In this document: positions 12,546-36,091 of the stretch, one piece after another
Numbering within the stretch: the stretch's first letter is position 1
Layout of the letters: every line of letters starts with the position of its first letter
Notes under the pieces: generated by a model
What the model saw: the letters and a program-made list of their open reading frames with translations, nothing else
The model's database searches: none
What the model was told of the DNA's origin: nothing
Made by a program: the position numbers and the translations under genes
NCBI GenBank assembly: GCA_900095095.1
Contig: FMBT01000616.1
Location: forward strand, 1 to 36,216
Length of the DNA stretch: 36,216 nucleotides
Reading direction: 5' to 3'
Source of the DNA: Fragilariopsis cylindrus CCMP1102
Lineage: Eukaryota > Bacillariophyta > Bacillariophyceae > Bacillariales > Bacillariaceae

Positions 12546-14412
12546 ATGGAATCTTTCATGCTCTCCATTCCTTCACGGCAGGGATTTTTCGCATACCTCC
12601 TGATATTGTTTTCTGGCGTTCTCGTCGGTTGACAACATTACAGCCACGACGGCAACAATAGTGGCGGAAGCGACGACGACGCCAACGACGACGATAGAAG
12701 AAAAGGAACGAAAGAGTATCTCATCCGGAACGGAATTATCTTTAACTATCGATAAGGTTAGTAGCAGTTCTATGGAAGGTGAAATTGTACCTAATAACGA
12801 TACCGATGCATCACTAGATTTAGATTTGGGTGCTGATAGTAATTACGGTAACAACGTCAACCTCAACGAAACATTGGCGACAACAAGAACAATCTCCGAC
12901 GTATTAGCGAATCAAAATGAAACACAATTCACAACATTCGAAGATATTGTCTGTTCATCTTCTATGAGCGATCAATTTTCAATGTTGTGTAATCTCCTTA
13001 AAAAAACAAATAGTTTAGGAAGAAGTATCAACGGCGGAAGTGACGATTCAATTTCATCACGACTTTCTGTATCTAGTGCTATTGATATTGACTGGAAAAT
13101 TAACTATAATGATCCATTTACATTATTTGCACCAGTAAATACTGCATTCGATGGACAATCATTAGAGATTTTACTTCCAGTAGGACTGTCTATTGCTGAT
13201 TTTTTATCAACACATGTAGTGAATTCTGCTATATCACCTAACGAATTAAGAAGAAATTGTTACGCTAATATACCAACACGATTTGCTGGTGAAACAACAA
13301 CAACACTATGTACTTTTGATGGTCGGAATACACCTATATATCAAGTCGGGGAAGGAAATTTGTTCTCCGACCGACCACAATTTATTGGTACTGGAATCAA
13401 GATTAATGGTTTTAATGGGTTCATATACGGAATAAACAATTTCATTAGACCAAGTCAATTCCTTGAAACAAACCAACCAACAGATACACCAACTCTACGA
13501 AGCCCAACAAATAGACCAACTCTACGACCAACAGCGTCACCAATATCTACTACTTCTCCTACAGCGTCGCCGACAATTTCGCCTACAAGTTCTCCCACTT
13601 CTAGTCCATCCGGTAATCCAAGTGAGTCACCCAGTACAGACCCAAGTTCTGCACCAAGTTCGGATCCAAGTGGTGGACCAAGTAAAAGTCCTAGCTCTGT
13701 TCCTTCTTCAAGTCCAAGTGGAGATCCAAGTTCCGATCCTTCTACAAGTCCTAGTTCTACTCCTAGTTCTGGTCCAACAATTACGCCTACTGCCTCACCT
13801 ACTGCGTCACCTACTGCGTCGCCTACTGCGTCACCTACTGCATCTCCTACTGCATCGCCTACTGCATCGCCTTCCGTGACCTCAACTACAACGTCTACTG
13901 GGACGAATTCTCAATCTGTATCCGGAACGTCTACTGGGACGAGTTCTCAATCTGGAACCGGAACGTCTACTGGGACGAGTTCTCAGTCTGGAACCGGAGA
14001 TTCTACTGGAACCGGAACGTCTACTGGGACGAATTCTCAATCTGTAACCGAAGATCCTATAGATATCGAAGGTGCTTTGGTGGAGAAGTCATTAGAAGAA
14101 TCATTGCCATCATTACAACCGAGTGATGGACCATCATTACAACCGAGTGATGGACCATCATTACGACCGAGTGATGGACCGTCATTACAACCGAGTGATG
14201 GACCGTCATTACGACCAATTGACTCAGGCGCGTTCACTATAGATATCGAAGATGCTTTGGTAAAGAAGTCATTAGAAGAATCATCTTCATCATTACAACC
14301 AAGTGACGGACCGTCATTACGACCAAGTGATGGACCATCATTACAACCGAGTGATGGACCATCATTACGACCACCAAGTGGTAAAAGACAGCCATCATTA
14401 CGAACACGTTAA
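12546..14412 (+). CDS. Secreted fasciclin (FAS1)-domain protein with Pro/Ser/Thr repeats
   Basis: The long frame runs from codon 12661 (a GTG) to TAA 14410-14412. Numbered from there, it holds a FAS1-like domain at about residues 100-270, with FTTFEDIVC near its start, FTLFAPVNTAF, DFLSTHVV and INGFNGFIYGINNFIRP. FAS1 domains mediate adhesion in extracellular proteins. Repeat tracts follow: PTASPTAS units (13786-13872), STGT/SSQSG units (about 13890-14040), and two blocks of a 21-base repeat encoding PSLQPSDG/PSLRPSDG (about 14105-14215 and 14290-14370). A probable signal peptide starts at ATG 12546 (MESFMLSIPS, then FFAYLLILFSGVLVG) but meets TGA at 12630 and is out of frame with the main frame. 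Two missing bases or one extra base between about 12605 and 12630 would join them. It is probably a cell-wall or mucilage protein; this is inferred from its architecture. Confidence 0.75.
13786..13872 (+). repeat. 12-bp in-gene tandem repeat (PTAS units)
   Basis: About seven copies of a 12-base unit of the type CCTACTGCGTCA lie within the fasciclin-type gene, with third-position variation (TCA/TCG/TCT). The unit keeps the reading frame, so copy-number change would lengthen or shorten the stalk without breaking the protein. Confidence 0.8.
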
Positions 14413-14709: not shown

Positions 14710-16038
14710 TTAAATTATTTCTAATACAGCTAAATATCCTTCACGGATTTCACGTTCCGATTTTGATTCTGCTGGTTCCACAATTAATTTCATTTTTATT
14801 TGCGATGAATTATAATTATCATCATTACTATCATTACTATTATCATCACATAACCAATCATTTAATTCATCTGTTGTTGGTAATGCACGTGGTACTAATA
14901 AAGAATTTTGTTTTGTTTGACCTTGTACATGTGATGCACCCTGTGCATGAATAATGATTATTCTACTACCTATTTTGGTTGTATCGAGTAATTCATTTTT
15001 AGTTTTCAATAAAGCAGTTTTCATATCAGGTAAATCATGTAATGCAGAACAAAATAATACAGAACGAAATTTTGTAGTAGTAGTATCTTGTTGTTGTCCA
15101 CCTAATTTATAAAAATCATCTGCTATAAATTTACCACCATCCACTTCTATATCAGGATAAAATTGTTTTGCATAATCAATCATTTCACTAGACAAATCAA
15201 TACCATGTATTTGTTTATTGATAAAACCAACTTTTTTCAAAAATGGTATTGTGACACCATATCCACAACCAACATCTAATACCTTATCATCGTCACTTGA
15301 ACTACTGCATACATCATATGCATATTGGGATGCTTTTAATACACGATTTTGAAATGTTGTTGACATCGTACCAGTTAATGATTTACATGCTTTGGCTGTT
15401 GCAGATGCATCCCATGTGATACGTTGCATTTCCATTTGTAATTTTTCTGGTGATAAATTATTTTCTGTTAGGTATAATTCATACTTATCACGATTTTGAA
15501 CCGCAATTTCAATATCCTCATTACTAAATTTTCGACGTATTGTATCAAAGTCCATACCTGATACTCTTTTATCAAATTGTTGACATACATCACGTAATAC
15601 AAATGCTTCTTTTATTTCTGATGACATCATTGATTCAATTCTTTTTTCGGTACCTTTTGTTATTTCTTCTGGTGTTGTACCACCATACATTTTAGTAACT
15701 TTTTTTAATAATTTATTTTTTAACTCAGTTGTATTAACCTTTTTTGTTTCTCCTTTACTTTTATTATTACTACCACCCTTTTTGATGTTTTTCTTCGATG
15801 GTGCCGGTGCTCCAAATCCAGCCATAAATAGTTGAGACGTTGATGTTGACGTTGATACTCTCGATGTCAATGTCGATGTGCTCAATAATGGCATTGGAAA
15901 TTGAAACGATGAGACCAACGATACCATTAGGACAATCATTGTTGATACTGCTATTATTACCGTCATCATAATGTTACTAGTAGTATGATCGACTGTTGAA
16001 TTGTTCAACGAGACTCTTCTCTTTCTTTCTTGGTACAA
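14710..16038 (-). CDS. SAM-dependent methyltransferase with N-terminal signal segment
   Basis: The 442-residue frame is intact. Residues about 24-45 are a hydrophobic signal or anchor (MMTVIIAVSTMIVLMVSLVS) followed by SSFQFP and a Ser/Thr-rich stretch. This is the pattern of a diatom bipartite plastid leader (cleavage before Phe, then a Ser/Thr-rich transit region), so plastid targeting is plausible. The true start may be the MM pair at residues 24-25. A Lys-rich helical region follows. The class I methyltransferase fold begins with motif I VLDVGCGYG near residue 255, then HGIDLSSEMIDYAKQFYPDI (binding of the SAM ribose by the Asp), a DD pair in FIADDFY, and FCSALHDLPD. The substrate cannot be inferred. 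An Asn/Asp/Ser insert encoded by a microsatellite lies near the C-terminus. Confidence 0.8.
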   Translation of the reverse strand: MYQERKRRVSLNNSTVDHTTSNIMMTVIIAVSTMIVLMVSLVSSFQFPMPLLSTSTLTSRVSTSTSTSQLFMAGFGAPAPSKKNIKKGGSNNKSKGETKKVNTTELKNKLLKKVTKMYGGTTPEEITKGTEKRIESMMSSEIKEAFVLRDVCQQFDKRVSGMDFDTIRRKFSNEDIEIAVQNRDKYELYLTENNLSPEKLQMEMQRITWDASATAKACKSLTGTMSTTFQNRVLKASQYAYDVCSSSSDDDKVLDVGCGYGVTIPFLKKVGFINKQIHGIDLSSEMIDYAKQFYPDIEVDGGKFIADDFYKLGGQQQDTTTTKFRSVLFCSALHDLPDMKTALLKTKNELLDTTKIGSRIIIIHAQGASHVQGQTKQNSLLVPRALPTTDELNDWLCDDNSNDSNDDNYNSSQIKMKLIVEPAESKSEREIREGYLAVLEII

Positions 16039-16837
16039 TAATGGTAGTACAGCAGATTGTTTTGTTCTGATCCGTTTGTGTCGTTTCTTTTGCGTTGGTG
16101 AGCTTTTTTTCTTCTTTTGTTGGTTCGAAAGGAAAAAATCTCATACGTGTGTGTATCTTTTGAGGGCATACAGTGCTTATTATTTTATACTGTAAACTAT
16201 TCTGATTTGATGTGATGTTATGATGATGTGTGGCTGACATTTCACTCGGGATTCGATTCATTCATGATTGATGATAAGAGAAGATCTTAAAAATCGTGCG
16301 AACGATTGATTGATTTCATCTTTCTTCATTCTTCATTTTACATCAACTCGCCATATTGTGTGAAGTCATGTTAAGAAGTACGGAGTAACGTATCTCCTAC
16401 ATGGTGTGAATTTTTTCCTAAGCCAATAAAATAGTCCTACACAATTTCACCTAGCTACTAGCAGGACAGTAGGAATGCGTTGTTCGCATCTTTTAATAGC
16501 TTATGATTTCTTTCATACGATTTTCTGGGGCAAAATATGAGTCGAGACTATCGTACTTTGTCATTGCCGTTACGATTTTTCGTTCGAATGGACTTTTAGT
16601 ATACTGGTTCTTCTTTGTTCTTTTTGACTCTCTTGCCTATGCCTGTTCAACGTGAAACGATCACGCCAGAAGAAATACACGGAGCGTGGATACCCCACGG
16701 AGCGTGGATACCACACGGTGCTAAATCGGTGTGCATACTACATACTAAATGATACTGCATTTCTTCATTATTCTACCATCTGCTAGTCCATCACAACTCT
16801 TATATTGGAGCTACGATTTGGAAGACTGTAACTCAAG
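16039..16837. other. Divergent intergenic region
   Basis: Probable promoter region of the methyltransferase gene on its left side. It contains an 18-bp tandem repeat at 16678-16718 (separate entry). Overlapping short open frames at 15977-16261 on both strands are not protein-like. Confidence 0.5.
16678..16718. repeat. 18-bp tandem repeat upstream of the PARP-like ORF
   Basis: Two full copies of CACGGAGCGTGGATACC (starts at 16678 and 16696) and the first five bases of a third. The unit is GC-rich and lies about 120 bp before the PARP-like start codon, so it may belong to that gene's promoter. No function is shown. Confidence 0.6.
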
Positions 16838-22846: not shown

Positions 22847-25740
22847 CTATACTTTTTCTAATTCAGTATAACCAGAATTTTCACGTTTCTTTTTATTTAC
22901 AATATAACTTCTTAATCCTAATTTATTCAGAATAAAAAATACAATCATACCAATCAATAATGGTATAAACCAACCTTGGTCTGTTGTTATTCGTCGTATA
23001 TCATACCATTGACGTAGTGGTATATTATGACGATATTCTACATCAGGACGGATTGCGCTTGGATCACTCATAACAAAATCATCATTCGCATCCCATCCCT
23101 GCCATTGATTCCAATCTAATGTACGTGGATTAGGATATTCATCAACAATCGAATAGTCATCATCAGTACGATTGTATATATCAAGACAACTGCCATATAA
23201 ACTTTCACTTGATATATTCGGTGCAGGAATTGGGGGTATCCAACCTTCCTTTAAACCTCTTAAAAAGTCCCATTCAATAAATGCACCACCTCTGTATTAT
23301 AATGCGTACAAACAGACATTTTTTGTTTTTTTTTGTTTCATTTCATGAATGACAGGTTGTGTAATGGATGGATGGAAGAGAAAGGAGAAGGGAAGAGAAA
23401 AACAATAAATATTGAAAGAAAAAAAAGATGAGATTCATCCAGTCAAAAATAAACGATTGGTGTCGAACTGAACTGAACCGAACTGAACCGAACTGAACCG
23501 AACTGAACCGAACTGAACCGAACTGAACCGAACTGAACCGAACTGAACGAATCGAGATCGGAAAGCAACGAATAGAAATAAAACAAAACAAAAAGAACTA
23601 ACTAAGAACTTACTCCATTTTAAAATTCCAGAATAACCAACCGCTAGCAATACCATTTGGTGAATCTTTCGTGATACTGTCAGCTGCCTCATATGCAATC
23701 ATTTGTGCTTGTACAAAATTACGTAAGAAATTGGATCGTTTTTTATCCACTGTTCTATTTAATAATGGTACCTGTCCATCTAACGAAATACCCTTCATTA
23801 GATTGGGTGTCAATGCTGTTGGTAATGAATCAAATGCACCGGACCATTCACCTATTAATCTTGATATACCATGGGATGGTATTGTTTTTTTTTCATCATC
23901 TTCATAACAACATTCTTTTACAGATGCTGCATCATGACGACATACGTACGCAATATGTTGTTTTGGTGTAAATGATCTACCTTGTTCAAAAAATACATGA
24001 TATGGATGACTATCAAGATATGTATTATGATGTGTTTCATTGTCAATCCAAAACGAACCATCATTGAAACGATCAGGACGGAATGTGTCACCAATAAATA
24101 TGGATGTATTGGAACCTAATATGGAACGTATATTTGTAAGGGCATCATTATAGTATTGTTTTAATACTGTTTCATTACAATCACTGAATGGTTCATTTAA
24201 TATACCAAATCCAGTAACAACATCATTTATATGATCTTTTTTAATTGCTAATGCTAAGTCAGTGATTATATCTAATGTTCTTTGTACATTTTTGGACGAT
24301 GAGGACCAACCAGAACAACTTGATTTACCTAAATAATGACCAGAATTATCAAATCCATTTTCTGATCCAGGTGCTTGTTTTGTTATTTGTGTTTTGTTCG
24401 TTCGTTTTGAGGAAGGAAATAAAATAAAAGTAGAATCGTATTAAAATATAATGAGAAAATTGTATCGTGAGAAATAAGAAGAAGAAGGAGTGAGTTGAGT
24501 TGAGTTGAGTTGAGTTGAGTGATTTCGATTTGATTCAATTCATTATAGACTGGAAAGGGAACGTTCGTTCGTTCGTCTTTGTTTTGGAATCAAATCAAAT
24601 CAAGATTCAAATCAAATCAACCCAATTCGAAAGAAAAGAATAACATCATCCAGCAACAATGATTGTAGTCATGCGTGTCGTGTCGTGTCGTGTCGTGTCG
24701 TGTCGTGTCATGTTATGTCGAGCATACACTGTATCTTTCGTTTTCATTCATTCGATCGTTCAACTCTCGTCTCGTCGACGACTCACTTGAGACAGATTTG
24801 TTTGTTTTGACGAGAGAAAAAGAAGAATGATAGATAGATAGATAAATCAATCGATTGATCAATCAACGACACGGCATCGGTACACCCGAAAATCAAAACA
24901 AACAAACAGATCCGCAGAGAAGCAAAGCAAGCGTATTTGTTTACGTATTTTTTACTGTGTACAATACTGTACAATTGTACAATATTGTACGATAGTACTG
25001 TACGTACCACCATGTAAATCAGCCCATACAATTAAATTTAATTCTCTTGCCCATTTACATGCTCGGACAAAATACTTCCATCCACCTGGTATAAATGGTT
25101 CATCATTATCATCTTCAGTAGTATTATCTTCTTCAGTTAGTCGTATCCAATATCCCATGGGTATACGTAAATGTGTTACACCATTTTTTTGTAGTGTTTC
25201 TAGGTCTTGATATGTTAAAAATGTATCCCAATGTCGTTCCATATATTTAGTGGCGGTATGAATTCCATGTATACTGTGAGAACGTAATACTTGTCCTAAT
25301 GTATATTCATCAACCGGATAATCCATACCATGTTGATTAATACCTACACCTTTATTGTTACCAATACTACTATTTGTATGTATTACATGATAATCGGTGG
25401 GTGGTTTTGCTTTTACTGCTAATACAGGTTGACATTTAGAAGTTGTATCACAAAATAAATCATTATTATTACTTTCGTTATTATCTGTGCTGATAGTACT
25501 AGTTGTGCTATTGTCGTCATGATATTTCGGTGCACCAATTTGTCCTGGATACCAACATAAACTTCCTTCTAAATGACAGGTATTGATGGCAAATAAATAC
25601 GGTGTGATAAATCGTTCTGCCATTAGCCATCCACCTATATTCACACCACGGATCCATTCTTTTTGTTTTACTTCTTCTTTGCCTTTTGACTTTGACTTTG
25701 GCTTTAGTTTTGTTCTTTCGATAACGTTACCATAATGATT
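22847..25740 (-). CDS. Membrane-anchored GH5 exo-1,3-beta-glucanase-like enzyme (at least three exons)
   Basis: Exons are 25740 (or further upstream) to 25008, 24373 to 23614, and 23291 to 22847. Junctions rebuild conserved words: LHG with APGSENGFDNSG across intron 1 (634 bp, GTACGT donor) and FWNFKME with GGAFIEWDFLRGL across intron 2 (322 bp, GTAAGT donor). Family signatures are IRGVNIGGWLMAE near the start, VTHLRIPMGYW, GFGILNEPF (acid/base Glu in NEP) and RLIGEWS (nucleophile Glu). The enzyme should hydrolyse 1,3-beta-glucans; in diatoms candidate substrates are the storage glucan chrysolaminarin and wall callose. After the catalytic domain comes a C-terminal helix (GWFIPLLIGMIVFFIL) and a basic tail, so the enzyme is membrane-anchored with its domain outside the cytosol. 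The N-terminus and signal sequence are not resolved: the frame runs upstream into an AATTTG-type repeat, and the first methionine-like start (a GTG at 25644) falls inside a conserved word. Confidence 0.88.
23461..23550. repeat. 10-bp tandem repeat inside glucanase intron 2
   Basis: About eight head-to-tail copies of the unit GAACTGAACC (with one shorter GAACT variant at the left edge). Because it is intronic it should not affect the protein, but it creates open frames on the minus strand rich in SVRF/SVQF that are not genes. Confidence 0.85.
24489..24710. repeat. Cluster of pentamer repeats in glucanase intron 1
   Basis: GAGTT units (about 24491-24520), GTTC units (about 24562-24576), AATCA units (about 24588-24622) and CGTGT units (about 24675-24710) lie in one 634-bp intron. 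Their density explains the unusual intron length for this window. Confidence 0.75.
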
Positions 25741-27667: not shown

Positions 27668-28499
27668 ATTTCAATAAAAGAAGGATAGTACAATGATTAC
27701 GGATAATGATACATTATATCTAATTATTGTTATTAATTACTACTACTACTACTACTACTGCTATTACTGTAATACAATCAAATACAATCGACACAATATC
27801 TATCTACCTGTCATGTGTAGCCTTGATTATTTCAACGCTTCTTTTGGTGTTTTTCTATGATTGTGTGTAAATTCCGACAGTTTCGTCAATATGTGCTCAA
27901 TGCATGGAGAAGATTTTTCATAAATGAAGACAATACAATTGTACTTCCATTCCATCCTACAATCTATTCTACTTCACGGAGAAGTAGCTTATTACTTCAA
28001 TCGTAACAATTTCGGTCTGCATGTCACTCCTTTATATGAAACAAGAAAGATCTGTTTTAAGCACGTTTCGAAAATCTTCACATCATGCATGACGCACATC
28101 AACACAGCGCACGCGCAAAAACAACACAAACTTCTTGCCTTTAAACGCACGCGACATATTCATTGATAGATCACACATCGGATGACGTGACAGCAAAAAA
28201 GCAAGCGAAAAATTCAAAAATAGAAGAAGAATGAATGAATGAATCGACACCAATCATCATCGCAACTTTACACGCGGCGTATGTGAATCAATCCAGAATC
28301 AATCAATCATCGATACATACATGCATGATCATCTTCTTTTCTTCTTCGCGGTTTTGAAAGAAAATGGAATTGGAATGAGGAAATGTGCGTAAATCGAAGG
28401 TAAAATAAAAGGCAATTAAATCAAACCAGATCGAATCAAATCAGATCAAATCATACATTCATCATCCCACTAAAAAATAAGATTAATAATCAGTATTAT
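27549..28499. other. Intergenic region upstream of the patatin gene
   Basis: Holds a GTCGT pentamer repeat (about 27569-27592), a (TA)n run (about 27635-27662), a TAC triplet run (about 27739-27760) and copy B of the duplicated module. A TGACGTGA element lies at about 28183. No gene was seen. Confidence 0.5.
27993..28080. repeat. Duplicated upstream module, copy B
   Basis: Second copy of the module at 26393-26483, starting with TACTTCAATCGTAACAATTT. It lies about 510 bp upstream of the patatin start at 28500, almost the same distance as copy A from its gene. Both downstream genes have leader sequences of the plastid type. Confidence 0.75.
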
Positions 28500-31151
28500 A
28501 TGGATCGCCCTTATCTTCGACGTCAACGTCAACGTCGTCGCGATGATGATGATGTCTCTGAGAAGATGAAAACTTGTTGTTCACGTATACTTTTTCATTA
28601 TTTAGCAATGGCAGCTATTTATAATACCTTTAGAACCGTGGATGGATTTCATTCACCAACAACAACAATTGTTGTTGTTAGCAATAAAACAACAAATCGC
28701 AACAACAGGAACAGGAACAACAGGAACAGAATTAATATTCCAACGATGACGACAAGAATAAAACGAAATATGCCTTGTTCTTCTTCAACATCTTCGTCAT
28801 CATCTCCTTCTTCTTCCTCCTCATGTTTACATGTTCTTTCTAATCCCAGTCGTCATCATCGGACGACCGACAATGACAACAATAAGATTGGTATCGTTGA
28901 CAACTACCTATCAAATATCAACACAAATCCATTAATGATGGATTTGCCACCAACATCAGCAGAAGAAATGATGAACAATCAAAAGAACACCAACAACATT
29001 AAATATGGCAATAGGCCTCTGATAACAACAGCATCAATAGTACAACAACAACCACCAACATCAGCTGTCAAACCGTTGCCGCCGCTAGTAGATCCATCAT
29101 TATTATTATCTATTGATGATGCTATTACATCTCATGAGGGGGCGGCTTTAATAAGTTCATTGTTTCGAAGTAGACAAAGAATAAATGGCGAGATATTATT
29201 TCCCTCTCCGTCGTCAATAATACGACCAACAACATCCACAACATCTTCTCGTTTGATAACAAAACTGAATAGTCCAAAACAATTGAAATTGAAATTAAAA
29301 CGACGTACGACGACAACAATCCTAAAAGAATTATTCAAAAAAGAAAAGAAATCACCACCATTAGAATTAACAACAGTGGAAGAATTGGATCGTTATTGGC
29401 CAGAACATATTGATGATAATGATATTGGTCCATATACTGAACCAATTGATTATAATCGTTTACTGAAAGGTATATCTGTAAAGGGTGATACACAAATTAT
29501 TGGTAGTAGTAATCATACTGATTTTATACATCCTGTATTAAAATTAATGTATGAAAGAAAGAAACTTCAAGAAGAAGAAAACGTTTCTTTTTCTTCTGAA
29601 AAAACAAAAACAGCAAACAATGAAAAGATTGCATTAGTTGTAGAAGGTGGTGGAATGAGAGGTTGTGTGAGTGCTGGGATGGTATGTGCAATACATTTTT
29701 TAGGTCTGGATGATACTATTGATATTGTATATGGTAGTTCAGCTGGTGCTGTTATTGCTGCCTATTTTGTATCCAAACAATTGCCATATTATGGTCCAGA
29801 AGTATATTATGATTCATTAACAACATTATCGTCATCATCAAGTTCATCAAGTTCAAGTTCAAGTACGTCATTATCGTCATCATCGAGTACAACATCGAGT
29901 AAAAAAAGAATAGCAACAAAACGAAAACAAAAATCAAGATCAAGATCGAGTAAACGTAATAGTAATAATGTGATTGATCAATATGAAAATAATTATTTTA
30001 TGGATTATAAACGAATAACAAGATCAATGGGATTAGGATTATGTGATCCACGTTTGTTAAAGGATGTAATAAAACGACCAATACAGGGTAAGCCAATGAT
30101 GAATTTACAATATATGTTTACAAATGTTATGCAGGATATTAAAAAAATTGACTTTGATACATTTAATAAAAGACAATCCATACAACCACTTAAGGTTGTA
30201 TCAACTAGTTTAATAAGTGAACAACCTGTTGTGTTGTCTAAAGAAAATGGTCATTTCAATTCTATACAAGATTTATGTAATTCATTACATGCCAGTTGCT
30301 TATTACCAGGTATTGCTGGTCCAGTAATGAATGTATTAAAAGATCCTCCCACAAAAGATAATAATAATGAACAACAACAACCGCTACCAACGTTTGTATT
30401 ACGGAATAATAATAATCAAAATAATGATAAAGTAATAATGATACAAAAAAAAATGAAAATATTAATCTATTATATGAGCCATTAGGTGATGCAATGTTTT
30501 CAGAACCAATCCCGTATGATATTGCAGAAAAGGATGGTAACGCAACACATATACTGGTCATCCGTTCATCACCAGATGGAACAAATTTAATTGCTTCTGA
30601 TACAATCATTAAATGGATGGGTTCATTAATATATAAACGATACTTTTTAAAGAAAAACAATCTACCAAATATGTATCAACGATTACAAAAACAACAAAAA
30701 CATCAACGTATATATGCAAAAATATATTAGAATTAAATGAATATGCATCATCATCACCACCAAAAGAATCAAAATCGGAATCAAATTCGAATTCGAATTC
30801 GAATTCGAATAGTAAACAAAAACCATCCGTAATGACAATAGCATTATCACCAAATACAACAGAAGTATCACATTTAGAAACATCAAGAGAAGGAATATTT
30901 ACGGGTGTACGACAAGGATTTGCACGCGCATATGATGCTCTTGTTGAGATCCATTAAAGCGTGGTAATGGTGCTAAAATGGCACTACAATATTTTCCTGA
31001 TGAAATATTAGATTATAATCCAAATGACATTAAGAATACTAACGATCCTGATTCTTCTCATTATTCAAATCAGCATTTGAGCTATATATTGAATCTACAG
31101 GTATCCAAACCAAAAACGTGGCAGCAACAGGAGGATGAAATCAAAAAATAA
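28500..31151 (+). CDS. Patatin-like phospholipase / acyl hydrolase, frame-interrupted
   Basis: The main frame encodes a patatin domain. It has the oxyanion motif EGGGMRG (about residue 382), the nucleophile elbow GSSAG with Ser codon at 29739-29741, and, after one frame offset, the dyad Asp in GDAM (Asp codon 30488-30490). Patatins hydrolyse acyl chains from glycerolipids. Residues 1-380 are largely polar and low complexity. An internal Met (residue 23) begins a hydrophobic leader (LFHYLAMAAIYNTF) followed by VDGFHSP and a Thr-rich stretch, compatible with plastid targeting. A long Ser/Lys insert lies after the Ser elbow (about 29830-29970). Minus-one offsets occur at the A9 run (about 30447), near 30720, and near 30948 (GAGATCCA). 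Bridging them gives VMTIALSPNTTEV, GIFTGVRQGFARAYDALVE and a final Gln/Glu-rich tail to TAA 31149-31151. All offsets have the same sign, so missing bases are more likely than decay. Confidence 0.78.
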
Positions 31152-31645
31152 AAAGAAAAAAACAGAAACAACGACAAGTGAGTTCCGAAAGACTAAAACG
31201 TAGTATAATACGTTACTACGATCAGTGTACGAATAAACGATGATACACGATAAGTAAGTAAAAGAGAAAAGAATATACAATAGAGAAAAGAAAAACACTA
31301 GCTATCTGGCTAGCAATACAATACAATACAGTACTGATATCAATAGTGGTAATAAAATTATAACTTTCATATTAACTGATATATGTACCGTGCCGTAACT
31401 AGTAACTATTGCGTTGTGTCTAGAAGTTGGAGCTGTACTTGGTGACTCACTTGGACAAGAACTAGGTAAGGACTTGGAGCTATACTAGGGAAATATGATC
31501 CTCTAGGGACAAAAACTTGCGGCTTCTGCGGGCGTATCTTCTTGAATGATGTTGTCGCATTCTTCAATGCAGGAATCTTCCGTCAGGCACGCACCGGCTG
31601 CAAAAGCCATAGGAAGAACACTTGCAAGAGTTTTTGCCGGTGCAA
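31152..31645. other. Convergent intergenic region with orphan Pro-Ser repeat fragment
   Basis: Most is AT-rich 3' flank. At about 31428-31510 the minus strand again reads like the Pro-Ser stalk of the next gene (words GSYFPSIAPS and SCPSESP in broken frames), although it lies beyond that gene's stop codon. Between 31510 and 31645 the minus strand encodes a plausible Cys-containing continuation in a minus-one frame. Confidence 0.5.
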
Positions 31646-34600
31646 CTACCCGGCTGCAGAGGAGAAAGTAGATTTGGTTCCCCAACATGAACCCTCACCA
31701 GTACAAGAACCAGCACCGATGACACCACCAGCCTTGTAGCAGGAACCCTCGCCAGTACAAGAACCAGCAGCGATGCCACCAGTAGCCCTGTAGCAGGCTC
31801 CTTTCTTGGTGCAAGAATCGGCGCCGATGGAACCTTCAATCACTCCAACACAGGCATCCTCGCCAAGACACGAACGAGTCCCAACCAAGATGGCTAAACA
31901 ATGGCAGTTTGTGCCTGGACCAACGCAACTTATGGCGCCAATACTAGCAGTAGTTCCAAGGTTTCTACAGGGGTCAGCACCATTGCACGCACCGGCTCCG
32001 ATCGTGCCTGCCGACTCTCCACAGGGTGAGTCGCCAGAAAATAGGCCAACACAACTACCGGCCCCTATTGTTGCAACAGCACCAATACAAGCGTTTTCAC
32101 CAAGGCAAGCATCTGCGCCAATAGCGGCAGCGGCAGCAGTTTGGCAGGCGTTTTCACCAAGACAAGAATTTGCGCCAATTGAAGCAGAAGGCATATGTTG
32201 GCAGGCGTTTTCACCAACACAGGCGTCGGCCCCAATGAGGCCATTCGAGAAGTCACAGGCATTTACACCAGTGCAACTATTTGCGCCAATAGTTGCAGTA
32301 GAGCAGAAGCAGGAATCATCTACTCCACAGGCACTGACACCAATAGTAGGAAGTCCGACACTATTGCATTCTAGAACATCAGCCTTATCAGCCTTGACTT
32401 CACTAGGTGGTCCACTCAGCGCTGAGCTTGGTGATGATGAAGGCTTGCTGCTTGGTGAATCGGAAGGACTTCTAGATGGCGACAAACTAGGTGAGGAACT
32501 CGGACCTCCACTTGGTGACGAACTTGGTGTTAAAGTCGGGCTAGAGGACGGTGAGGTAGTTGGAGTTGCGGTGGGAGTTGCAGAAGGCGAGGAAGTTGGA
32601 CTCGTACTAGGTTTGGTACTGTCAGTAGGAGACTCGGATGGTGCAGAACTTGGGAAGTAACTTCCACTAGGAGCAGCTGATGGTTCTCCACATTCGACAC
32701 TGACAGTTTCACAGGGAATTTCTACTCCGTATGCACAGAATTTGTAGTCACCACCCATTTCGGACAAATTATCAACATTACAGGCATCACATTGATCTGC
32801 TTCGAATTCTGCATCCATATACACGACGACAGTTACACTAGCAAATCCTTCAATACATTCACCTTTAACATCTTCAGAATCTCCAAAAATGACATTGCTC
32901 TTAATGATACAAGAATCCATACCGGCTTCGATGGCAAGGCCTGCTTCTTCTGGTATCCAATTTTGGGTAACAGTGAAGTCAACCGTATTGTTGGCAAAGT
33001 TTTGGTTGTTGATTACGATAGCATTCGCGGGCATTGGGATAGTTTCCATTTCATCTCCACCGGTTGTCATACAAACAGACTCGATAATCTTGGGCTCTGC
33101 AGGCATGTAACAATCGGTAGGCATCATAGACTGAGTTGGGTTGTTGGTAGGAGATTCAGAAGGAGAGGCACTTGGGCTGCTACTGGGTCCCCTACTTGGC
33201 AAGGAGCTCGGCAAAGTGAATGGAGATCCGCTAGGACTTGCACTAGGACCAGAAGTTGGACTAGATGAGGGTGCAGAGCTGGGAGAGCTCGTTGGACCAC
33301 CAGATGGTGCCGCACTTGGACTAGAGGTCGGACCACCAGTTGGTGCAGCAGTAGGCAAATCACTTGGAGAAGCGCTGGGCGACAATGTAGGTTTGCTGCT
33401 TGGTGATTCAGAGGGATTGGCCGTTGGGCCTCCCGTTGGACTGGTAGACGGACTAGCACTGGGACTTGCAGATGGCGCTGGACTCTTTGTTGGGCTATCA
33501 GATGGAGCAGAACTAGGGAAATACGATCCGCTAGGGGCTTCACTAGGTGATCCACTTGGCGCTGAGCTTGGTGATGATGAAGGCTTGCTGCTTGGTGATA
33601 CAGAAGGACTGCTAGATGGCAACAAGCTAGGTGAGGAACTCGGACCTCCGCTTGGACTTGCTGAAGGCACGTAACTTGGACCTCCACTTGGACCTGCAGA
33701 AGGTGAAGCACTTGGAGATCCGCTTGGAGATCCAGACAGTGAGGAACTGGGTCCACCACTTGGTACACCACTTGGTACACCACTAGGAGCAGAACTTGGA
33801 ACAGAACTTGGTGAAGCGCTTGGACTCGAACTAGGAGAGGAACTTGGAATCGAAGTTGGAACTGTACTTGGTGACTCACTTGGACTAGAACTAGGTGAGG
33901 CACTTGGAGCATGACTATTTGTAGGCGTATTACTTGGAGCTGAACTAGGGAAATAGGATCCACTAGGAGCTTCACTAGGTGATTCACTCGGTGCTGAGCT
34001 TGGTGATGATGAAGGCTTGCTGCTTGGTGATATAGAAGGACTGCTAGATGGCAACAAACTAGGTGGGGAACTCGGACCTCTGCTTGGACTTGCTGAGGGC
34101 ACGTAACTTGGACCTCCACTTGGACTTGCTGAAGGCATGTAACTTGGACCTCCACTTGGACTTGCAGAAGGTGAAGCACTTGGAGATCCACTTGGAGGTC
34201 CAGAAGGTGAGGAACTAGGTCCGCCACTTGGTACACCACTTGGTACACCACTGGGAGCAGAACTTGGTACACCACTTGGTACACCACTAGGAGCAGAACT
34301 TGAAATAGAACTTGGAACAGAACTTGGAACAGAACTAGGTGATGCGCTTGGACTCGAACTAGGAGAGGAACTTGGAATCAAAGTTGGAACTGTACTTGGT
34401 GACTCACTTGGACTAGCACTAGGTGAGGCACTTGGAGAATGACTATTTGTAGGTGTATTACTTGGAGCTGAACTAGGAAAATATGATCCGCTAGGGGCTT
34501 CACTAGGTGATTCACTCGGCGCTGGGCTTGGTGATGATGAAGGCTTGCTGCTTGGTGATACAGAAGGACTGCTAGATGGCAACAAGCTAGGCATGTAACT

Positions 34601-36091
34601 CGGACTTCTACTTGGACTTGCTGAGGGCATGTAACTTGGACCTCCACTTGGACTTGCAGAAGGTGAAGCACTTGGTGATCCGCTTGGAGATCCAGAAGGT
34701 GAGGAACTGGGTCCACCACTTGGTACACCACTAGGAGCAGAACTAGGTTCAACAGATGGGAATGTAGTGGGATAGAATGTAGGATACATTGTTGGAGGAC
34801 CTGATGGAGATGCGGTTGGATTGGTGCTAGGAGCAGAGCTTGGACTCCAACTTTTTCTGATAGTTGGACTAAAAGTTGGACCTGTACTTGGCATGGCGCT
34901 TGGAACAGAAGTTGGTGATGCACTTGGACTCGAACTAGGAGAGGAACTTGGAATAGAAGTTGGAGCTGTACTTGGTGACTCACTTGAACTAGCACTAGGT
35001 GAGGCACTTGGAGCATGACTATTTGTAGGTGTATTACTTGGAGCTGAACTAGGAAAATATGATCCGCTAGGGGCTTCACTAGGTGATTCACTCGGCGCTG
35101 GGCTTGGTGATGATGAAGGCTTGCTGCTTGGTGATACAGAAGGACTGCAAGATGGCGACAAACTAGGCATGTAACTCGGACCTTTACTTGGTGATCCACT
35201 CGGCGCTGAGCTTGGTGATGATGAAGGCTTGCTGCTCGGTGATACAGAAGGACTGCTAGATGGCGACAAACTAGGCATGTAACTCGGACCTCCACTTGGA
35301 CTTGCTGAAGGCATGTAACTTGCGCTAGGACTACAACTAGGAGAGGAACTTGGAGAAGAACTATTCGTAGTTGGCACAAAAAGCTCAATAAGTCTATCAG
35401 TAGGACTATGTGATGGCGTAGGAGTATTGCTTGGAGTGCCGCTTGGAGCTACACACGTACATTTGATCTCGAAGGTGTATTTGATTATTCCGTATCCTTG
35501 GGTGGAGTAATCTTCGTAAGGTGGTTTGGAACATTTGTCAATTTGAACGTCACCACCACTTGAAATTTCCTGTACCACAGAATCAGTATTGGATGCGAAA
35601 TATATATCAACAATCGCAAAAGATTGAACGCCATCATATTCGAAGCAACCAGCTTCAATTTCAGGTGCATCGAGTTTGCATCCGGCAGTGAGTGGCATAG
35701 ATACATAGTTAGGATCCAAAGCGTACTTGCCAACCTTTTTCATGTGTTTTATGTAGATATCTGTATGATTCGCAAAAGGATTATCTACCTTGAACTTGAC
35801 AGTGTGAGCAGCATTGATAACATTTGGTTGTTCAAAGATGATACCATAAAGAATGGGTTCACCCTCTGGTGGAGATTCTCCCGATTGCTTAATCATTTTC
35901 ACAACACCATGTGGGTTGGCTGGACAGGCGGATTCATTCGTTAATGTCTTGTAGGTTTCGTTGCAAGAGGTAGTAAAACGTTGTTGGTGGTGTTTCGTTG
36001 CCGATAACCTCGCGGTAATGACAATGGGCGCAACAAGCAACAAGCTGCCGAACGCAAAAGAAATCCTCATGATGATAGATAAAAATTTCAA
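31646..36091 (-). CDS. Giant secreted mucin-like surface protein with Pro-Ser stalks and Cys repeats
   Basis: Intact 1481-residue frame. A signal peptide comes first (MRISFAFGSLLLVAPIVITA; Met 1 or Met 8). Globular domain A is at about residues 40-216, with conserved-spaced Cys, N-glycosylation sites and VKFKVDNPFANHTDIYI. A Pro-Ser stalk of PSxxPSxx units fills about 217-990 (DNA about 33120-35440). Globular domain B (about 990-1133) resembles A in its Cys pattern, its Val-x-Phe-x-Val strand and its aromatic strand near the end. A short second stalk follows, then about twelve units of IGAxSCxGxxAC type (about 1235-1481). No transmembrane helix or GPI signal is visible at the stop. Pro-Ser rich secreted proteins are typical of diatom cell walls, girdle bands and adhesive mucilage; I infer an extracellular structural or adhesive role. 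A minus-one offset at GGGTAG near the stop would extend the Cys region by about 50 residues, to a stop near 31503. Confidence 0.8.
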   Translation of the reverse strand: MKFLSIIMRISFAFGSLLLVAPIVITARLSATKHHQQRFTTSCNETYKTLTNESACPANPHGVVKMIKQSGESPPEGEPILYGIIFEQPNVINAAHTVKFKVDNPFANHTDIYIKHMKKVGKYALDPNYVSMPLTAGCKLDAPEIEAGCFEYDGVQSFAIVDIYFASNTDSVVQEISSGGDVQIDKCSKPPYEDYSTQGYGIIKYTFEIKCTCVAPSGTPSNTPTPSHSPTDRLIELFVPTTNSSSPSSSPSCSPSASYMPSASPSGGPSYMPSLSPSSSPSVSPSSKPSSSPSSAPSGSPSKGPSYMPSLSPSCSPSVSPSSKPSSSPSPAPSESPSEAPSGSYFPSSAPSNTPTNSHAPSASPSASSSESPSTAPTSIPSSSPSSSPSASPTSVPSAMPSTGPTFSPTIRKSWSPSSAPSTNPTASPSGPPTMYPTFYPTTFPSVEPSSAPSGVPSGGPSSSPSGSPSGSPSASPSASPSGGPSYMPSASPSRSPSYMPSLLPSSSPSVSPSSKPSSSPSPAPSESPSEAPSGSYFPSSAPSNTPTNSHSPSASPSASPSESPSTVPTLIPSSSPSSSPSASPSSVPSSVPSSISSSAPSGVPSGVPSSAPSGVPSGVPSGGPSSSPSGPPSGSPSASPSASPSGGPSYMPSASPSGGPSYVPSASPSRGPSSPPSLLPSSSPSISPSSKPSSSPSSAPSESPSEAPSGSYFPSSAPSNTPTNSHAPSASPSSSPSESPSTVPTSIPSSSPSSSPSASPSSVPSSAPSGVPSGVPSGGPSSSLSGSPSGSPSASPSAGPSGGPSYVPSASPSGGPSSSPSLLPSSSPSVSPSSKPSSSPSSAPSGSPSEAPSGSYFPSSAPSDSPTKSPAPSASPSASPSTSPTGGPTANPSESPSSKPTLSPSASPSDLPTAAPTGGPTSSPSAAPSGGPTSSPSSAPSSSPTSGPSASPSGSPFTLPSSLPSRGPSSSPSASPSESPTNNPTQSMMPTDCYMPAEPKIIESVCMTTGGDEMETIPMPANAIVINNQNFANNTVDFTVTQNWIPEEAGLAIEAGMDSCIIKSNVIFGDSEDVKGECIEGFASVTVVVYMDAEFEADQCDACNVDNLSEMGGDYKFCAYGVEIPCETVSVECGEPSAAPSGSYFPSSAPSESPTDSTKPSTSPTSSPSATPTATPTTSPSSSPTLTPSSSPSGGPSSSPSLSPSRSPSDSPSSKPSSSPSSALSGPPSEVKADKADVLECNSVGLPTIGVSACGVDDSCFCSTATIGANSCTGVNACDFSNGLIGADACVGENACQHMPSASIGANSCLGENACQTAAAAAIGADACLGENACIGAVATIGAGSCVGLFSGDSPCGESAGTIGAGACNGADPCRNLGTTASIGAISCVGPGTNCHCLAILVGTRSCLGEDACVGVIEGSIGADSCTKKGACYRATGGIAAGSCTGEGSCYKAGGVIGAGSCTGEGSCWGTKSTFSSAAG
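31650..32390 (-). repeat. In-protein Cys repeat array (IGAxSCxGxxAC)
   Basis: About twelve units of 17 to 22 residues, for example TIGANSCTGVNACDFSNG and SIGADSCTKKGACYRATG. Each has a small hydrophobic start, one Cys at about position 6 and one at about 12. Regular short units with two Cys suggest a solenoid such as a beta-helix with stacked disulfides, which is inference. Confidence 0.75.
33120..35440 (-). repeat. Nested tandem repeats coding the Pro-Ser stalk
   Basis: The base unit is about 12 bases (Pro-Ser-x-x). These units are arranged in longer blocks that recur near-identically. The landmark encoding SGSYFPSSAPSNTPTNSHAPS-type text occurs at about 33518, 33951, 34480 and 35057, so the higher-order period varies from about 430 to 580 bases. 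Block ends carry the same words (GPSYMPSASPS, SKPSSSPS). Recent duplication by unequal crossover is the simplest explanation. Confidence 0.85.

Follow-up and report, generated by a model that had tools for sequence, protein, structure and literature searches.

A candidate adhesive glycoprotein of a diatom with a mosaic of modules common to sister genes

Introduction

The underwater glue of diatoms drives their gliding, their fouling and the biofilms that they form, and to our knowledge few of its proteins are known. Both GDPH domains and ice-binding-like domains are reported among the adhesive proteins described from diatoms (PMC7335047, PMC8027222, PMC11420354, PMC10713564), and the GDPH domains are said to be diatom-specific and tied to adhesion (PMC7335047, PMC8027222). 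CaTrailin4, from the trails of Craspedostauros, is presented as a very large, modular protein of about 900 kDa (PMC11420354), and its predicted structure is described as like that of a bacterial ice-binding protein (PMC10713564). GDPH proteins are, however, reported absent from Nitzschia inconspicua (PMC8329260), so on that report they are not required in every benthic diatom.

The DNA analysed here, termed the window, is a stretch of 36,216 nucleotides (contig C698), and the genome that was searched with it comprises 67.9 Mb in 818 contigs and is that of a diatom, given its 27 matches to the silicic acid transporter family PF03842 (best E 1.1e-226). The window contains a gene for a large surface-type protein in which two Cys-rich domains, designated A and B, are separated by a Pro-Ser stalk and followed by a second stalk and a Cys solenoid, an architecture that is not described in the literature searched.

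Results

Gene model and module order

The minus strand of 31646-36091 is open for 1481 codons, while a frame read on the plus strand of the same region is interrupted by many stops. The first Met of the minus-strand frame, at 36070, yields a protein of 1474 aa, and the TTG at 36091 is dispensable as a start. From this Met the order is leader, domain A, stalk, domain B, second stalk and Cys solenoid, with the following features.

36008..36070, minus strand: start codon and probable signal peptide (MRISFAFGSLLLVAPIVITAR), by eye
35450..35980, minus strand: domain A, DUF7633-superfamily-like and Cys-rich, from sequence and profile comparison
33116..35449, minus strand: first Pro-Ser stalk with PT/PS repeats, from composition and Pfam PT (PF04886)
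32687..33115, minus strand: domain B, acidic and DUF7633-superfamily-like, from sequence and profile comparison
32375..32686, minus strand: second Pro-Ser stalk, with a mosaic border near 32515, from composition and DNA comparison
31646..32374, minus strand: Cys solenoid, Pfam DUF7640, twelve coils plus the window-frame stop at 31646-31648, from Pfam and periodicity
31503..31645, minus strand: solenoid continuation of two coils and FCP tail, in frame in contig C350 and in other frames in the window, from haplotype comparison

The N-terminal leader is hydrophobic as judged by eye (MRISFAFGSLLLVAPIVITA). Domain A ends at residue 207 and contains seven Cys, and the first stalk (residues 208-985, 778 aa) is 39.8% Ser and 24.4% Pro with a total of 14 Lys and Arg. 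Domain B (residues 986-1128, 143 aa) contains nine Cys and has 27 acidic residues against 4 basic ones, and the second stalk (residues 1129-1232, 104 aa) leads into the solenoid (residues 1233-1474, 242 aa, 27 Cys). Up to E 0.1 the only Pfam families in the window protein are DUF7640 and the disordered PT repeats (E 6.4e-29), pAdhesive_15 being absent, and the window has no match in Rfam. The minus-strand frame with its 778- and 104-residue stalks bears out the surface-type order of signal, A, stalk, B, stalk and Cys repeats that was given, with no strand named, in a preliminary description of this DNA. Among the places found in the genome, the complete order A-stalk-B-stalk-solenoid occurs only in C698 and C350, the two haplotypes.

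Other frames in the window include a second adhesion-type frame at 12604-14412 (plus strand), in which a fasciclin (FAS1) domain (E 1.6e-7) is followed by PT/PS repeats; three fasciclin proteins are listed among raphid-signature genes (PMC7335047). A patatin-like phospholipase (28404-30485, plus strand), a glycosyl hydrolase of family 5 (23610-24440, minus strand) and a methyltransferase (14710-16140, minus strand) have no visible link to the surface-protein gene.

The 3' end and the second haplotype

Contig C350, which is 98.7% identical to the window region across 6053 bases, is regarded as its other haplotype. Its single open frame, of 1534 codons from stop to stop and 1517 aa from Met, passes the stop of the window frame and adds two extra Cys coils and a tail ending in FCP. 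The stop of the window at 31646-31648 reflects a difference in frame from C350, and the gene extends beyond it. The window keeps the same 3' pieces in three different frames, down to about 31503, as a result of two small length differences, seen as two frame changes, towards the 3' end of its haplotype, which may be an assembly error or a young lesion. Neither a membrane anchor nor a GPI-like end was seen by eye in the C350 tail, and when the region behind the window stop was searched by tblastn for remains of DUF7633, of B or of the domain set E (a further group of relatives, see below), no hit fell below 0.088. Downstream of the FCP stop, at 31300-31502 on the minus strand, there is a short Ser-Pro-rich stretch (SSCPSESPSTAPTS) that resembles the remnant of a stalk and may point to a formerly longer gene.

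Domains A and B

Neither domain A nor domain B of the window matches a Pfam family up to E 10, and for these two domains the suggestion in the preliminary description that the protein may be undescribed holds, although it does not for the solenoid (see below). Its proposal that A and B are related agrees with a direct comparison of their profiles by hhalign, which gave 76.5% (E 2.2e-5) when the alignments held 5 and 12 rows but fell to 53.8% (E 1.3e-4) when they held 4 and 7. Higher values were obtained when copies of DUF7633 were compared with A (88.7%, or 89.4% with smaller sets) and with B (93.9%, or 95.7%), and the set E (n=7, chosen by eye) gave 96.6% with B, 90.5% with DUF7633 and 56.3% with A. 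The controls reached at most 1.3% in 12 comparisons with reversed alignments, 1.9% in 120 column shuffles and 0.1% with the solenoid. These profiles were built for domain A from 5 of its 7 places in the genome (C350 and C323 left out), for domain B from 11 of 19 places together with a copy from locus L079 (C350, two further C99 copies and five fragments left out), for DUF7633 from 10 of 16 (one duplicate, one partial copy and four without locus sequence dropped), and for the solenoid from four copies (C350, C655, C50 and C439), other copies being left out. Because A and B show profile homology to DUF7633 yet match no Pfam model, they form separate families of one superfamily with it. On these comparisons A, B and DUF7633 are placed in one old superfamily, in which the direct relation between A and B is the weaker link.

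Two Cys that are present in all four other domain-A rows are both absent from the window copy, where Tyr and Ser are found, and such a joint loss is as expected if the pair form a disulfide. Single-sequence AF2 models were too weak to use for either domain (A: all-beta, mean pLDDT 39.8; B: pLDDT below 50 across the domain). Searches of the PDB by sequence gave no convincing relative for A (best E 0.69) or B (best E 0.083) and none for DUF7633, and in viral contigs no relative was confirmed for A (125 pattern hits) or DUF7633 (16 pattern hits).

The Cys solenoid

The preliminary description treated the solenoid as part of a possibly undescribed protein, but it is already represented in Pfam as DUF7640 (PF24646), which it matches in two stretches with 156.7 bits (E 3.8e-46) against a curated cut-off of 28.1 bits. 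DUF7640 has 28 matches in this genome and none in 14 control genomes, and neither it nor DUF7633 is named in the literature searched. The estimate of about twelve Cys repeats was accurate, the window frame containing the starts of twelve coils. The coils are 18-22 residues long and are made up of [IV]-G-A-x-[SA]-C hexads. Sequence identity at a lag of 18 residues is 0.246 in the window solenoid, where none of 2000 shuffles exceeded 0.165, and 0.236 in the longer C350 solenoid, compared with 0.159 when shuffled. Counted with a coil motif that does not require Cys, 10 of the 26 gaps between Cys in the window solenoid are of 6 residues and 9 of the 26 are of 12 or 13.

Hexapeptide-repeat models gave lesser matches. 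Pfam Hexapep matched three of the four solenoid members (best E 0.052) and Hexapep_2 one of the four (0.0066), the window member matching DUF7640 alone, while LpxD was weakly matched in all four (best E 6.9e-4; 18.7 bits against a curated cut-off of 242.5). In the NCBIfam control the reversed solenoid set matched only an unrelated model (0.59). The top match in a profile search of the PDB, 9lti (E 0.039), does not belong to the hexapeptide proteins, and the reversed profile matched an unrelated enzyme at E 0.084, equal to the best acyltransferase match of the real profile. With its hexapeptide pattern the solenoid is probably a Cys-rich beta-helix. Solenoid relatives were confirmed neither in viral contigs (47 pattern hits) nor in other genome contigs (38 pattern hits), the latter queried with the solenoid only. 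In two DUF7640 loci, L033 (C655) and L041 (C579), the coil is preceded by long Ala-Thr-rich stretches, another kind of stalk.

Genes that share the modules

Domain A was found at seven places in the genome, on C698, C350, C340, C44, C78, C195 and C323, and the GDPH pattern accompanies it at three of these (C78, C195 and C323). On C78, GDPH is in frame with domain A, and the frame of 1178 codons encodes a Cys-rich region, CGVWGDPHIITCDDLHYDCQ, pAdhesive_15 (residues 686-962, E 6.6e-13) and then domain A. We take pAdhesive_15, like the ice-binding-like domain of CaTrailin4, to be a choice-of-anchor-A domain. Von Willebrand D was not matched in the C78 frame up to E 0.1, and its GDPH stretch matched RGM_C at 0.00097, under the cut-off of that model. 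On C195, a similar GDPH stretch is about 1.1 kb upstream of domain A in a frame of its own, presumably an earlier exon, and on C323 a GDPH hit, at pattern level and not translated, lies at a matching distance among the matches listed. The domain-A frames of C195 and C323 are identical, and these contigs look like two haplotypes. Among the matches listed there is no GDPH near domain A on C340 or C44, and one, far away, on C350; GDPH is absent from the window protein, with 0 coding patterns in the window DNA. Across the genome the GDPH pattern was near chance among the matches listed (112 coding patterns compared with 99 for the reversed pattern) and was dropped as a genome-wide marker; the hits used here are only those that fall within a domain-A frame or shortly upstream of one.

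pAdhesive_15 occurs at four places and DUF7633 at 16 places in the genome, and the two come together on C108, where DUF7633 is about 1.3 kb further downstream. DUF7633 also terminates a DUF7640 frame (C50) and a frame with a B-like domain (L079), as well as the frames of four of the 12 DUF7633 loci examined (L078, L082, L086 and L087), which are metalloprotease-like and carry the motif HEIGHNLGLAH or HEVGHNLNLGH. We take these four to resemble gametolysin and the algal gamete lysins. Since DUF7633 follows metalloprotease-like frames too, its superfamily is not specific to glue.

Mosaic origin and selection

The nearest relative of domain A is the C-terminal domain of the GDPH and pAdhesive_15 protein on C78 (74% identical), that of domain B is on C770 (90%), and those of the solenoid are on C216 and C439 (90%). 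A and B are thus each far closer to a domain of another gene than to one another, and the internal duplication that was suggested in the preliminary description as the source of the pair is rejected. The DNA was compared in 150-base windows with selected loci only, C350 being left out, and 2 of 51 such windows were matchless. The nearest DNA is that of C439, C216, C307 and C146 (90-97%) from 31500 to about 32515, that of C770 (91-97%) from there to about 33540, stalk DNA of C99, C558, C439 and C216 (74-94%) from there to about 35430, and that of C78 (78-94%) beyond. BLAST places the first border at 32514/32515 and extends the C770 match to 33610. The window gene is on this evidence a mosaic of modules common to sister genes, in a new architecture. 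Because the block borders near 32515 and at 33540-33610 lie in Pro-Ser repeat DNA, they suggest that recombination between stalks produced it. In addition, the very long Pro-Ser frames on C99 (14508-30970; L013-L015, L017 and L018), the longest of 3286 codons, contain repeated copies of B and, towards the end, a copy of DUF7633, and may encode a giant protein of the trail type.

Values of dN/dS are 0.25 (C78) and 0.16 (C340, with synonymous sites saturated) for domain A, 0.33 for the domain-A pair C340-C44 in which the window is not involved, 0.23 (C770) and 0.22 for domain B, and 0.38, 0.64 and 0.72 for the solenoid. By this measure A and B are under purifying selection and the solenoid is less constrained. 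Between the window and C350, dN is 0.005 in A and 0 in B, with too few changes for dN/dS to be interpreted. Both the dN/dS values and the retention of one frame in the C350 haplotype show that the coding is real.

Discussion

The best explanation of these data is that the gene encodes a secreted, mucin-like adhesion or extracellular-matrix (EPS) glycoprotein of the diatom, assembled as a mosaic from a larger family, a reading to which a probability of about 0.6 is assigned. The window protein is probably a component of the cell's sticky outer coat, a function read from the company of its modules and its composition alone. The adhesive reading is favored because relatives of A occur in genes with GDPH and, on C78, pAdhesive_15, and a role as a matrix or trail component rather than a receptor is favored because the C350 tail has no visible membrane anchor or GPI-like end. 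The hydrophobic leader would direct secretion, and the Pro-Ser stalk would be O-glycosylated and stretched and would keep A and B apart as putative binding heads. The very acidic domain B might be bridged by calcium, and the C-terminal DUF7640 coil, as a rigid, Cys-stapled beta-helix, would anchor the molecule to the mucilage or cell coat or cross-link it there.

PT/PS repeats and Cys-rich domains could also be exported with silica, where they would glue or template it, and a matrix protein of the frustule, the silica cell wall, is an unlikely but reasonable alternative. PT repeats are reported in many silicon-responsive proteins of Thalassiosira, including TpSIL1 and silaffin-like proteins, as is the response to silicon of an eight-Cys, SiMat7-like family (PMC5501833), and the window protein has five KXXK motifs. 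None of the five, however, is in the 778-residue stalk and one is in the second stalk, and with only 14 Lys and Arg in the first stalk the lysine clusters described for silaffin-like proteins (PMC5501833) are not apparent; the shared modules, moreover, point towards GDPH genes. Some GDPH proteins, in Seminavis robusta, are reported to respond to sex pheromone (PMC8027222), and DUF7633 follows metalloprotease-like frames in this genome, as might suit a mating-induced surface protein for sexual or cell-cell recognition whose mosaic heads recognize partners. A recognition gene would be expected to be diverse, yet the haplotypes are near-identical in A and B (dN 0.005 and 0), and this role is considered distinctly improbable.

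It is very improbable that the gene is a decaying or already inactive mosaic, generated by recombination among genes rich in repeats, that has lost its 3' frame and is dispensable. The pair of frame changes close to the 3' end in the window, the possible Ser-Pro-rich remnant downstream and the loss from domain A of two Cys that are kept in all four other rows are what such decay might leave, but C350 keeps one open frame of 1534 codons, dN/dS is well under 1 for A and B, and all of the 3' amino-acid pieces persist in the window, as expected of an assembly error or a very recent change.

The window gene connects the uncharacterised families DUF7640 and DUF7633 and two unnamed domain families with genes that bear the GDPH and ice-binding-like markers of adhesion, and it suggests how adhesive proteins may get remade, by recombination within low-complexity stalks. 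A bolder proposal, tentative and with the odds leaning against it, is that DUF7640 is a disulfide-stapled hexapeptide beta-helix, a bacterial sugar-acyltransferase fold that was reinvented or captured as an extracellular rod of diatoms, with Cys ladders at its corners in place of the catalytic site, and that this rod, DUF7633-type heads and Pro-Ser stalks are shuffled between genes through recombination of stalk repeats into adhesive mosaics, of which this gene would be a recent one. If the Cys coil is such a stapled beta-helix, it would be a new extracellular building rod.

Compared with known systems, the window solenoid matches DUF7640 (PF24646), a Pfam entry whose name states no function, whereas A and B align by profile with copies of DUF7633 (PF24636) and do not match the Pfam model itself. 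Like the left-handed beta-helix proteins of the hexapeptide type (LpxD, LpxA, GlmU and gamma carbonic anhydrase), the solenoid has coils of ~18 residues with hexads of the form [IV]-G-x-x-[SA]-x, but unlike them it closes most hexads with Cys and is probably extracellular, and it scores far under their curated cut-offs where shown. The C-terminal domain of Tapirin (6n2b), which we take to be a bacterial cellulose-binding adhesin, is a lead only, at 7% identity to a solenoid model whose better part has a pLDDT of about 53-69. While the window protein is without GDPH and pAdhesive_15, it has domain A in common with the C78 frame that carries both, and its large, modular build is that of the GDPH and trail adhesives described from diatoms, the trail proteins of Amphora coffeaeformis and CaTrailin4 of Craspedostauros australis.
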